DNA of 23,684 bases from a virus, in IMG/VR virus record IMGVR_UViG_3300028027_000240, positions 1 through 23,684 of that record, one strand, 5' to 3'. Below are positions 5,402 to 23,212 of the stretch, piece after piece. Under the pieces are notes generated by a model, which saw only the letters and a list, made by a program, of their open reading frames with translations, was not told the DNA's origin and did not search any database. Positions within the stretch are counted from its first letter, which is position 1; every line of letters begins with the position of its first letter. Both the position numbers and the translations under genes were made by a program.

Positions 5402-6685
5402 ATGCCGATTTATCGTGGTCCCGGCGGTCCCGGAGATGCTGTAGCAGATAGCTCTAGTGAAGCCTTATTAATTCGTGATTTAGTTGCAGAAGCTGATGCT
5501 GACGCTGCCGCTGCTGCTGCAAGTGCTGCCGCTGCTTCTTCTTCTGCTAGTGGTGCATCTTCTTCCGCAAGTGCTGCTTCTACATCCGCAAGCAACGCTG
5601 CAACATCAGCTACCAATGCGTCCAACAGTGCATCCTCTGCATCGACCTCAGCAACCAACGCAGCCAACTCCGCTACTGCAGCTCAGACTGCAGAGACTGC
5701 TGCTGAACTAGCAGAAACAAACGCAGAGACTGCAGAAACTAACGCTGCAGCTAGTGCAAGTGCAGCTTCTACTTCAGCGACCAATGCTGCAAGTTCAGCA
5801 TCCAGTGCTTCTACATCAGCCACTAACGCAAGTAACTCAGCCACCGCTGCTGCGTCTAGTGCTTCCGCTGCCTCTACGAGTGAAACCAATGCTTCTAATT
5901 CAGCAACTGCTGCTGCATCGTCTGCAACATCGGCTTCTAACTCTGCAAGCACAGCCACAACCCAAGCAACCAACGCATCTAATTCCGCTACTTCAGCTTC
6001 AACTTCAGCTACAAACGCTGCTAACTCAGCGACTGCTGCATTAGCGTCTGAGACTGCTGCTGCATCAAGCGCATCCAGCGCAAGCACATCAGCAAGCAAT
6101 GCCTCTACTTCTGCAAGTAACGCAGCCACATCCGCTACTAACGCTTCTAACAGTGCTTCTTCAGCAAGTACTTCAGCGACTAACGCATCCAATTCAGCTT
6201 CTGCTGCAGCTACATCAGCAACCAATGCAGCAAACTCTGCTACTTTAGCAGCAAGCTACACACCAAGTCAAACAGGTAACTCTGGTAAGTTCTTAACTAC
6301 TGACGGTACAAACACTTCTTTTGCACACGTCCCTATCTCTGTTACTGGTGGAGATTTAACTTTATCAGGAAATTCTGGAGCTGCAATCACTAATGCAACT
6401 CTTGCTACTGTTAATAGCAACACAGGCTCATTCGGCAGTTCAAGTTCTATTCCAGTAGTGACTGTCAATGCTAAAGGTTTAGTAACTGCGGTAACAACTG
6501 CAACTGTAGCTGGTGGTCAATACTTTGGTACTGCAGCATCTAAAGCAATCGCATACAACGAAGACTCTATTGCAGAGAACATCACAACAACAAGCGGTAA
6601 GAACTGTCTCTCAGTCGGTCCAATAACGATTGCGTCTGGGTTCTCAGTTACGATTGCTTCTAACCAGCGATGGATTATATTATGA
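5402..6685 (+). CDS. Tail fibre protein with long Ala/Ser heptad-repeat shaft
   Basis: This 427-residue protein has a short N-terminal segment (MPIYRGPGGPGDAVADSSSE). A shaft from about residue 33 to 285 follows, made almost only of Ala, Ser, Thr and Asn in seven-residue units such as STSATNA, SNSASSA and ANSATAA, with Ala at the core positions. Similar alanine-heptad shafts occur in lambda-type side tail fibres and are expected to form trimeric coiled coils. A C-terminal region (about 288-427) holds GKFLTTDGTNTSFAHVP, NSNTGSFGSSSSIPVVTVN and SVGPITIASGFSVTIAS, which are beta-rich fibre motifs. The start lies immediately after the HNH stop, with TAGGAG upstream. The stop overlaps the next start (ATGA). 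It probably reaches towards the host surface and carries the next gene product or a distal tip. Fibre role is sure; attachment point is inferred. Confidence 0.85.
   Translation: MPIYRGPGGPGDAVADSSSEALLIRDLVAEADADAAAAAASAAAASSSASGASSSASAASTSASNAATSATNASNSASSASTSATNAANSATAAQTAETAAELAETNAETAETNAAASASAASTSATNAASSASSASTSATNASNSATAAASSASAASTSETNASNSATAAASSATSASNSASTATTQATNASNSATSASTSATNAANSATAALASETAAASSASSASTSASNASTSASNAATSATNASNSASSASTSATNASNSASAAATSATNAANSATLAASYTPSQTGNSGKFLTTDGTNTSFAHVPISVTGGDLTLSGNSGAAITNATLATVNSNTGSFGSSSSIPVVTVNAKGLVTAVTTATVAGGQYFGTAASKAIAYNEDSIAENITTTSGKNCLSVGPITIASGFSVTIASNQRWIIL
5500..6258 (+). repeat. Heptad-coding repeat tract of fibre gene
   Basis: More than 30 seven-codon units made of Ala, Ser, Thr and Asn codons. 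A 26-residue block encoded at 5585-5662 recurs with the same amino acids at 6110-6187, but 16 of its 26 codons differ silently. The tract therefore repeats at protein level while being scrambled at DNA level. It also creates long spurious open frames on both strands. Confidence 0.8.
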
Positions 6686-21211: not shown

Positions 21212-21688
21212 TTATCCTTTTGAATACTTCGTTAGGTATAAAGCTGCTTTTGTCAATACTGAAGCACTGTCCTTTAAAAGCCCAATGCCTGTGTTACATC
21301 CATTACAAAGAACTCCTCGATTTTCACCGGTATCGTGGTCGTGGTCTAATACTGCTCGTTCCTTGCATTTTTTATCAAAAACTAAATCAACAGAACAGAT
21401 AGCACATTGATTATTTTGTGCTTTTGCCATATCTAAAAACTCTGCGTAGCTAACACCGTAATGTGATTTATAGTGCCAATCAGTTCTTTTAGAAATAGCG
21501 TGTGTTTTGTTCTTTTTATACCAATTAGAACACGACTCTGCTTGTTTTTCTTTGTTTTCGTTTACCCATGCTCGATTCTTTTTAGTTGTACATTCTTTAC
21601 AGTATGAGTGTAGCCCATCTTTACTTGCTGTCCTTTTATGAAAACTAATAGCGGGTTTCTCAACTCGACAAGAACTACAACTTTTCAT
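21212..21688 (-). CDS. Endonuclease VII-like nuclease with zinc ribbon (probable mobile gene)
   Basis: The 158-residue protein starts MKSCSSC, with C4/C7 and C30/C33 forming a zinc ribbon (YCKECTTKKNRAW). A basic linker follows. The C-terminal domain has CAIC (C95, C98), VLDHDHDTGENRGVLCNGCN (113-132) and IGLLKDS, the zinc-plus-DHDH pattern of recombination endonuclease VII, which cuts branched DNA in T4. In many phages this domain occurs in free-standing homing-like genes. The N-terminus is very like that of the HNH gene at 4919-5401, which favours mobility over a housekeeping resolvase. It is fitted into the operon with no spare bases: ATGA overlap upstream and a single-base gap to the next ATG. 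Both roles remain possible. Confidence 0.85.
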   Translation of the reverse strand: MKSCSSCRVEKPAISFHKRTASKDGLHSYCKECTTKKNRAWVNENKEKQAESCSNWYKKNKTHAISKRTDWHYKSHYGVSYAEFLDMAKAQNNQCAICSVDLVFDKKCKERAVLDHDHDTGENRGVLCNGCNTGIGLLKDSASVLTKAALYLTKYSKG

Positions 21689-21987
21689 TCTTCACCGTCC
21701 CAGTCGCTAAACAAGTCGCTACGCTCACGATTCTTTAGAACCATCTGATACTCCTCAGTGGTGATGTGGTTTACACCGCCATCTTGGTTAGTGATTTCAG
21801 GAAAGTCTGTCAGAAACACAAGTCTCTCTTTGATGGGATAGCCGTACTGCAGTGTCAAGAAGTCAGCAAACTTGCTAACTAACTTAACCCACGACACATC
21901 GTAAGTAAAATCGCCATCATAGGTTTGTATGCCATCAAGGTCGGCTAGTGCAAACTTTACGTTTATTTCTTTATCATCATTCATCAT
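21685..21987 (-). CDS. Hypothetical acidic phage protein
   Basis: A protein of about 100 residues containing INVKFALADLDGIQTYDGDF, YGYPIKERLVFLTDFPEI and an acidic C-terminus (SDLFSDWDGEE). I do not recognise the family. The start is uncertain. ATG 21987 has GGAG 9 bases upstream and is preferred, but in-frame ATGs at 22002 and 21984 also exist, all overlapping the end of the nuclease gene upstream. Its stop overlaps the next gene's start (ATGA). It sits among DNA-processing genes, so a replication or recombination role is possible but only from context. Confidence 0.72.
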   Translation of the reverse strand: MMNDDKEINVKFALADLDGIQTYDGDFTYDVSWVKLVSKFADFLTLQYGYPIKERLVFLTDFPEITNQDGGVNHITTEEYQMVLKNRERSDLFSDWDGEE

Positions 21988-22333
21988 CGTCTTCATCTCC
22001 ATTGTAGGACATCAAATCAAATAAAACTTCTGCATCAATCACAGCGAGTGGCTTCGAGTTGTTTTGTTTGATAATCACAATCGGTTCACCATCGCCATGT
22101 TTCTTACACTGCTCGTAGTAATTATACACAGCAATCTTTGCTAAAGACTTACACTCAAATGTTGCCGGAAGTTCCTCCTTAGCGTATTGCGACATCACTA
22201 CATCTTCACCGTGGCTTCCCATCGGACAACTGCGTAAGTCCTTGTCCGTCAACTGGGGATACCTCTCCAGCAACTGCTTTACTGTCCACTGCTGGAGCAG
22301 CCTTCCTTTTTGTTTTGCTGAGCTTGTTTTCAA
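21977..22333 (-). CDS. PD-(D/E)XK-type nuclease, probable resolvase/endonuclease
   Basis: With a TTG start at 22333 the protein is about 118 residues: (M)KTSSAKQKGRLLQQWTVKQL, CPMGSHGEDVVMS (36-48), then TFECKSLAK (58-66) with E60 and K62 as the ExK pair. D44 would be the acidic partner. This small PDDEXK-like arrangement occurs in phage enzymes that cut branched or viral DNA, a role like T7 endonuclease I. The frame is open upstream to ATG 22492, but that extra part looks like a shadow of the overlapping gene. MKTSSAKQKGR is a natural N-terminus, with AAAGG 9 bases before the TTG. The N-terminal coding part overlaps the preceding gene by 128 bases. Confidence 0.75.
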   Translation of the reverse strand: MKTSSAKQKGRLLQQWTVKQLLERYPQLTDKDLRSCPMGSHGEDVVMSQYAKEELPATFECKSLAKIAVYNYYEQCKKHGDGEPIVIIKQNNSKPLAVIDAEVLFDLMSYNGDEDDDE

Positions 22334-22553
22334 AATTGATTGCCTTTCGTTTTGTAAGCATTTTTTTAGGGATTGTAATGCTGTTGTTACACATTCCTTC
22401 GGTGATAGTCCCTGCAAGCTCGATTTGCTCAGCGTCTTCATAAACAACAAATCCCACTGTTTTGCACTGCAAATCTTCTCTTTTTGCTTCATGCCATTCG
22501 CCTTGTGCTAACGCATCTAACCACTCAACATAAACTAGCTTGGAAGTTGCCAG
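22206..22553 (-). CDS. Small phage protein with unclear start, between exonuclease and nuclease genes
   Basis: The conserved-looking part is KLVYVEWLDALAQGEWHEAK, then KTVGFVVYEDAEQIELAGTI and NSITIPKKM. The pattern YVEWLDA, (C)KTVGF--YEDAE-I-LA and ITIPK is typical of a short phage protein of unknown function, probably a small beta fold. No ATG, GTG or TTG lies near this region. The only ATG in frame (22667) is deep in the exonuclease gene and would add a very basic stretch that looks spurious. A CTG at 22553, read as (M)ATSK, with AGAGAAG about 10 bases upstream, is the best local start. The last 40 residues overlap the nuclease gene and may have no function of their own. The frame is surely used in its middle; the start is not settled. 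Confidence 0.55.
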   Translation of the reverse strand: MATSKLVYVEWLDALAQGEWHEAKREDLQCKTVGFVVYEDAEQIELAGTITEGMCNNSITIPKKMLTKRKAINFENKLSKTKRKAAPAVDSKAVAGEVSPVDGQGLTQLSDGKPR

Positions 22554-23212
22554 ACTTGGTTGGCTTCTCTTTGTAACCAGAGTAGCCGTCCGTTCTCCAA
22601 CACTCGCTGCTGGTCGCCCTCGTAGGCTTTGAGGACTGCTTCGTATAGTTCGTTTTCGTTTGTACATTCTGCTAGTATCCTTTTAGCTTTAACAGGACCG
22701 ATACCTTTCAGTCCAATAATGTTGTCAATCCTGTCGCCTGTTAATATCTGAGTATAAAAAGAATGTAGCCCTTCAAACTCAGAGACATAATACTTTTCTT
22801 TCTTACGGTAGTTGTAATGCCAACCTCTGAACTGGTTTAAATCTTTGTCGATATGCACCATAATAGATTCATCTTCAGAGACCGCATACGCAGCGATACC
22901 AACCGCATCGTCTGCTTCAATACCGTTGACTACTTCAAAGCCCCAAGAGTTCACTAGGTGGTCTCTAAGTGCCTGTAAATGTACTGGTTTCTCGGATATT
23001 CTCTGACCTTTGTATGGAACTGTAACTGCTATCGAATCACGGAAGTTGCCTTTGCCCGTTAGGAAGCCCTTGTAATCTTCACAGTCCAAGTCCATACAAA
23101 GTTCAGTCATTGTTTCCTCAAGCCTTGCTATCGCAATGTATTCCTCAGCGTCGTTGCTAGAGAAACCCACTGCGTAGCAGAGGCTATCGGCATCAATGAA
23201 GGCTGTTATCAC
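22535..23212 (-). CDS. 5'-3' exonuclease / flap endonuclease
   Basis: This 225-residue FEN/PIN-like nuclease starts at GTG, overlapping the SSB stop (GTGA). D7 and D9 (FIDADS), the EADD motif at 99-102 (GIEADDAVGIAA), DKD at 122-124 (HIDKDLNQF) and the helix-three-turn-helix TGDRIDNIIGLKGIGPVKAK (158-177) are all present. Metal ligands and the DNA-binding motif of the T7 gp6/T5 exonuclease class are therefore intact. It would remove RNA primers, degrade host DNA ends or process recombination intermediates. Its 3' end overlaps the next, poorly defined gene. The enzyme is shorter than T7 gp6 but complete. Confidence 0.9.
   Translation of the reverse strand: MITAFIDADSLCYAVGFSSNDAEEYIAIARLEETMTELCMDLDCEDYKGFLTGKGNFRDSIAVTVPYKGQRISEKPVHLQALRDHLVNSWGFEVVNGIEADDAVGIAAYAVSEDESIMVHIDKDLNQFRGWHYNYRKKEKYYVSEFEGLHSFYTQILTGDRIDNIIGLKGIGPVKAKRILAECTNENELYEAVLKAYEGDQQRVLENGRLLWLQREANQVWQLPS

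Follow-up and report, generated by a model that had tools for sequence, protein, structure and literature searches.

The window analyzed here is a virus record of 23,684 bases, taken at its full length, in which a small gene lies on the minus strand within a replication operon arranged in the order ssDNA-binding protein (phrog_112), 5'-3' exonuclease, small gene, and RusA-like nuclease. In a preliminary description of this DNA, the small gene had been presented as one without an ordinary start codon, for which a CTG start at 22553, a -1 frameshift from the exonuclease, or a far ATG with an overlap of about 130 bases might account. The features of the locus are as follows:

22535..23212, minus strand: 5'-3' exonuclease gene, upstream of and overlapping the small gene (phrog_107, E 3.2e-60)
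22683..22685, minus strand: in-frame TAA upstream of the small-gene ATG (codon -47); an in-frame stop lies nearby in 65/65 sequences
22678..22684, minus strand: Shine-Dalgarno-like AAAAGGA, 11 nt from AGG to ATG; AGG conserved in 65/65
22206..22667, minus strand: small gene of 153 aa in the ORF list, most likely starting at ATG 22667-22665; ATG here in 65/65 distinct sequences
22535..22667, minus strand: exonuclease/small-gene overlap of 133 nt, small-gene residues 1-44, comprising the leader MYKRKRTIRSSPQSLRGRPAASVGERTATLVTKRSQPSLATS and the core start; no stops in 65/65
22578..22580, minus strand: CTG at codon -12, best read as an internal Leu codon, possibly a secondary start
22551..22553, minus strand: CTG at codon -3, the start proposed in the preliminary description, best read as an internal codon
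22338..22538, minus strand: predicted small beta-barrel core, residues 44-110 (AlphaFold2 model)
21977..22333, minus strand: RusA-like Holliday junction resolvase-type nuclease gene, downstream, TTG start 22333 (phrog_244, E 1.7e-9)

Codons of the small frame are counted backwards from Ser42, with codon -41 as residue 1 (ATG 22667), codon -12 as CTG 22580, and codon -3 as CTG 22553. With the exonuclease ORF ending at 22535, the overlap from ATG 22667 measures 133 nt, stop included, and 201 nt (22534-22334) of the 462-nt small gene lie outside both neighbours. The overlap of 128 bases with the nuclease gene at the 3' end, which had also been described previously, is real as geometry: the implied start TTG 22333 corresponds to TTG in 35 and to GTG in the other 5 of the 40 homologues placed among 65 sequences (window included; 24 not placed), and in one further relative (L051) the junction between small gene and nuclease is rearranged, with the nuclease starting at ATG (MKTSSAKQKG) in another relative frame. 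Three other genes of the record are mentioned in passing: an Endonuclease VII-like HNH gene at 21212-21688 (PF02945, E 1.6e-18) that lies within the replication operon and perhaps encodes a homing endonuclease; a protein with collagen-like repeats at 297-1754 (PF01391, E 7.2e-19), probably a tail fibre; and a repetitive, very Ser/Ala-rich ORF at 5402-6685, probably encoding a fibre or stalk protein.

Relatives were collected from IMG/VR with a query containing only the core and no leader, which found 60 loci encoding relatives of 70-94% identity, and with an exonuclease search, from which the best 80 of 385 matches were kept and which added relatives with other downstream genes. Because the core-only search yielded 60 such loci, 59 of them with ATG at the homologous place (the remaining one, L002, is cut off by the contig end), the frame containing KLVYVEWLDA, a 153-aa ORF, exceeds chance, as had been claimed. 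The collection comprised 218 loci including that of the window, of which 217 had an exonuclease match, 198 were usable, 97 were distinct, and 95 had a readable exonuclease (L054 and L184 were dropped as unreadable). The test set, termed AB, consists of 65 distinct sequences (64 relatives plus the window) in which the EW core is found at the same frame and register; their exonucleases are 51-100% identical to that of the window, and identity among them falls to about 50%. The other 30 of the 95 belong to group C, with a small gene of the PDIIQISW type, to group D (L120 and L125), or to more distant phages. Group C, which represents few independent lineages, was counted as 15 rows in the column-swap, pairing, and stop-making-codon analyses (L118 and L119 left out) and as 16 rows (with L118) in the analysis of NTG codons and synonymous change. 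The AB sequences contain 49 distinct leader peptides and 54 distinct leader DNAs, and since they are thus not independent, AB counts overstate the number of events; the column counts and the column-swap null described below reduce the effect of kinship without removing it.

The sole ATG, GTG or TTG codon before the core is ATG 22667, inside the exonuclease gene, and no second one occurs in frame between it and the KLVYVEW core, in agreement with the earlier observation that none lies nearby. Alignment of the start region in relatives, which had been suggested as a way of finding the conserved codon, points to this far ATG: it is present in 65/65 AB sequences and is preceded in every one of them by AGG, at a distance of 11 nt (60 sequences) or 10 nt (5 sequences), contrary to the claim that an ordinary start is missing. 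The AGG coincides with exonuclease residue 178, where Arg is encoded by AGG in 60/60 cases, as against 69 of 482 Arg codons at residues 2-165; where the residue is Lys (5 cases), the codon is AAG followed by a codon starting with G, and AAGG is kept. An in-frame stop precedes the ATG in all 65 sequences, at codon -43 (40), -47 (18) or -49 (7), with no NTG codon between stop and ATG. Pairing with the anti-Shine-Dalgarno sequence at the ATG averages -5.3 kcal/mol in AB versus -1.6 kcal/mol in group C, and the motif counts by its conservation and not by its strength, because 19.5% of the 18-mers in these exonuclease genes reach -5 kcal/mol or lower; a bare AGG within 22 nt upstream is also found in group C, in 7 of 15 rows. 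Where AB has the ATG, the 15 group C rows have CTG (12), TTG (1), CTA (1) or ATG (1). Synonymous change in AB is also low directly upstream of the ATG (exonuclease residues 171-181, 22670-22702), at 0.65 for the whole set and 0.79 for the 34 nearest to the window; constraint on a ribosome-binding region would fit this, as might other causes.

From this comparison of sequences we propose, with a probability of about 0.88, that translation of the small gene (153 aa) begins at an ordinary start codon, ATG 22667, located within the exonuclease gene and served by a Shine-Dalgarno-like AAAAGGA of its own. Initiating there, inside the 3' end of the exonuclease gene, ribosomes would traverse the final 133 nt of that gene in the -1 frame and continue into the core; a ribosome starting there would have to enter the small gene, because none of the 65 AB sequences has a stop between ATG and core. 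One stretch of DNA would thus encode parts of two proteins, as the small gene would begin inside the exonuclease gene. The far ATG was among the options listed in the preliminary description, which found the resulting leader odd; the comparative evidence favours it nevertheless. An ATG-started short form, which was to be looked for in relatives, was encountered only as starts of the group C/L119 type, in relatives whose small gene is of another version: that of group C seems to start at a GTG near the last Trp codon of the exonuclease with AAAGGA upstream (L096-L116), and in L119 the start is ATG with AAGGAG.

In the overlap, an exonuclease codon ending in T creates a small-frame stop if the following codon starts with AA, AG or GA. 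The leader frame contains no stop from ATG to core in 65/65 AB sequences, and stop-making T-ending exonuclease codons number 0/490 at residues 183-210 versus 1325/2623 at residues 2-170 of the same genes. Among alignment columns with at least 30% of rows occupied, any T is found in 0/11 columns of the overlap (residues 183-222) versus 47/47 control columns (Fisher p 4e-12); when every column is counted, T appears in 0/12 (residues 183-210) versus 78/84. In the column-swap null, each overlap column gave way to a column for the same amino acid drawn at random from residues 2-165 of those sequences, which respects relatedness, and over 2000 draws 62.5 ± 3.4 of the 65 sequences acquired a stop, with a minimum of 40, as against 0 observed. 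Tyr197 illustrates the pattern: it is encoded by TAT solely before GGA, where no stop arises (3/65), and otherwise by TAC. An open leader might also follow incidentally from the codon usage and protein sequence of the exonuclease, with no selection on the small frame. The leader does overlap conserved exonuclease residues, and T-ending codons that would be harmless are themselves rarer in the overlap, at 174/761 (23%) for residues 183-210 versus 42% elsewhere. However, harmless T persists at 23% in the very stretch where harmful T is 0/490, the column-swap null does not fall below 40 sequences with a stop, and group C does contain stop-making codons in the same stretch (53/129), its ATG being mostly missing; an origin as a by-product is therefore extremely improbable.

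We are confident, on these comparative grounds, that the leader frame is open and under selection. Selection on the leader residues themselves is likely: leader peptide identity across AB is 0.553 versus 0.459 ± 0.017 in a stop-free null that borrows codon columns from elsewhere in the exonuclease gene, and 0 of 1000 draws were as high. Synonymous change over the leader is suppressed to 0.78 in all 65 sequences, with no control stretch of 29 codons as low, and to 0.65 in the 34 nearest to the window, a value that is unremarkable in that subset, where 14-17% of control stretches are as low. Residue-level selection is graded no higher than likely because of the pairing, this result in the 34 closest sequences, the low synonymous change upstream of the ATG, and the rarity of harmless T. 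Seventeen further contigs, picked by eye, served as an outside test set; they came from a search with an alignment of 39 long proteins (A1) in which the best 80 of 402 matches were kept. Two of them (L287 and L292) had earlier shown an incomplete exonuclease, and two (L292 and L294) were cut off and unreadable; the ATG and an open leader were present in 15/15 readable contigs, as was AGG, judged by eye. These contigs are biased towards leader carriers, since the alignment used for ranking included the leader, a bias from which the core-only search is free.

The two CTG codons were weighed as starts in several ways. Codon -12 is GTG in 52, ATG in 5, CTG in 5 and TTG in 3 of the 65 AB sequences, and codon -3 is TTG in 32, CTG in 29, GTG in 3 and ATG in 1; the TG of each is explained by the exonuclease, because each overlaps an exonuclease TGG (Trp212 in the case of codon -12). 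Codon -12 was first favoured as the main start on account of GTG and ATG in relatives, and it was dropped because the frame upstream of it was found to be under selection. A second, shorter product made from codon -12 in addition to the long form from ATG 22667 would be compatible with the ATG start. This codon is GTG or ATG in 57/65, the third base of the corresponding exonuclease Leu codon is G in 62/82, a larger share than in other conserved Leu columns, and pairing upstream averages -5.6 kcal/mol (-6.4 kcal/mol in the window). The TG is supplied by the Trp codon, however, and the third-base test is confounded, because 28/30 sequences outside AB, where the codon is not known as a start, also have G or A at that base; the window itself has CTG there, with GGAG 14 nt away. 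On balance a pair of products appears rather unlikely, while retaining some plausibility. CTG as the only start, either 22580 by homology with the GTG or ATG of relatives or 22553 as originally suggested, is very improbable. CTG can be a genuine start, as in the FIB plasmid rep gene according to the excerpted text of PMC11983097, and CTG 22580 recurs in 5/65 distinct sequences (six contigs including that of the window). A start at either CTG would leave unexplained the invariant ATG, the AGG motif and the 0/490 stop-making codons upstream of both. A CTG-start gene would be recognized by having no standard start in frame, and here a conserved in-frame ATG lies upstream. Codon -3 in particular was rejected, as its first base alternates between T and C and looks like an unselected wobble base before an exonuclease Trp codon, and pairing before it is weak (mean -2.4 kcal/mol, -2.9 kcal/mol in the window).

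The least probable of the readings is that programmed -1 frameshifting towards the end of the exonuclease gene gives a fused product, as the preliminary description had also suggested. The small frame is indeed the -1 frame of the exonuclease, but no X_XXY_YYZ heptamer is shared at a single position by more than 10 of the 65 AB sequences between 60 nt before the ATG and 60 nt past codon -12; the search for a conserved slippery heptamer in the exonuclease frame of these sequences was thus negative, and the window has none in that region. Slippage upstream of the in-frame stop (65/65) would terminate there, and the conserved ATG and AGG would be left without explanation. An assembly error was rejected because the same arrangement recurs in many contigs.

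In the reading with the ATG 22667 start, the product is a predicted small beta-barrel flanked by an N-terminal leader and a C-terminal tail, both basic. The AlphaFold2 model, made on alignment A1, has five strands within residues 44-110, where ten-residue blocks have pLDDT values of 84-91 except for two at 54 and 68 (residues 51-70); leader and tail are of low confidence, and the mean pLDDT is 64.3. The leader is probably disordered, and it carries on average a net charge of +6.5 per 29 residues versus +3.5 in the same frame elsewhere in the exonuclease gene, where 18% of stretches of that length reach +6. The predicted fold matched 19 viral models at E ≤1e-3 (best 3e-7), which represent uncharacterised phage proteins 82-133 residues long. 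Fold matches in the PDB are weak: the best Foldseek E value is 0.2, with many Hfq chains and other small barrels, and Hfq chains reach Z of about 6-6.6, as against up to 7.2 for an unrelated chain. On the basis of charge, modelled fold and neighbours, we infer that the small protein may be a nucleic-acid-binding accessory of the replication/recombination operon. The position of the small-gene stop varies among relatives, and for this reason the tail is not regarded as conserved.

When the core protein was searched against the phage collection, no match was found at E 10, nor any at E 1 when a related core served as the query. None of 50 candidate stretches in bacterial and archaeal genomes was confirmed, there was no sequence match in the PDB at E 10, and Pfam gave no match for the window protein at E 1. 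In PHROGs the small protein had no match at E 0.001 and one weak match at E 0.027, and 19 of the 39 aligned members matched phrog_25889 (best E 9e-4, no description). Among 1683 phage records with a related exonuclease, the four records MW202701, MK613347, MK613348 and OK172329 have no annotated gene of this type adjoining it; in MW202701 the next two ORFs were translated, and neither was similar to the small protein by eye. In OK172329, approximately 700 nt after the exonuclease gene are without annotation.

In a tree of 84 distinct exonuclease rows (residues 1-170, with a midpoint root for drawing only), AB does not form a single clade: groups C and D are nested within it, and leader carriers occur on both sides of the deepest split. 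Most simply read, the tree suggests an old leader in these phages that C and D lost, or that was replaced there by recombination of the 3' end and the small gene; this history is inferential because the midpoint root serves for drawing only. A broader interpretation, to which we give even odds, is that a co-directional overlap of 133-193 nt with both frames under selection has been kept down to about 50% exonuclease identity and was lost or swapped out in C and D, with stop-making codons back in C, and that the basic leader would have a replication function of its own. If this is true, the two kinds of phage constitute a natural experiment on the gain or loss of a dual-coding leader.

What had seemed a gene without a proper start thus becomes a testable and well-supported dual-coding overlap common to many relatives. 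If the ATG reading is right, annotation of a nearer start would remove 29 residues (codon -12) or 38 residues (codon -3) of a conserved leader. The codon-avoidance test used here is applicable to other phage operons.

The predicted five-stranded core has possible counterparts in small barrels of the Sm/Hfq/SH3 type and in phage proteins including one of Pelagibacter phage HTVC025P; the small protein has no PDB sequence match, and its PDB fold matches are weak, Hfq chains being tied with other folds. In the FIB plasmid rep gene, as far as the excerpted text of PMC11983097 goes, the true start is a CTG demonstrated by N-terminal analysis and mutation. It resembles the present case in that the start lies upstream of the one usually annotated, and differs from it in that the CTG is genuine there, while the CTG codons of the small gene are unsupported and its start is most likely ATG. 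Same-strand overlaps of prokaryotic genes, in the sections of PMC2478687 and PMC3887535 drawn upon, arise as here when the 5' end of the downstream gene extends into its upstream neighbour. In its set, the survey in PMC2478687, so far as it is quoted, judged no co-directional overlap of more than 60 bp to be real, the longest real one being 56 bp (holD-rimI), and took overlap beyond 60 bp as a sign of misannotation; the phage overlap described here, at 133-193 nt, is well above that limit, and the comparative evidence indicates that it is real. A close parallel is found in the two-component spanins (Rz/Rz1 type), for which the excerpts of PMC6139136 list 228 overlapped and 182 embedded pairs among 528, 116 of them in the -1 frame, and state that annotation often overlooks such overlapping phage genes or misplaces their starts. 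As in the small gene, a downstream phage gene begins inside the upstream one, in another frame of the same strand; the spanins are lysis genes, whereas the small gene belongs to a replication operon and its overlap would carry a leader before a separate conserved domain. Long same-strand overlap is therefore of a kind already known in phages, to which the small gene, judged from its conservation, appears to add a well-supported case.
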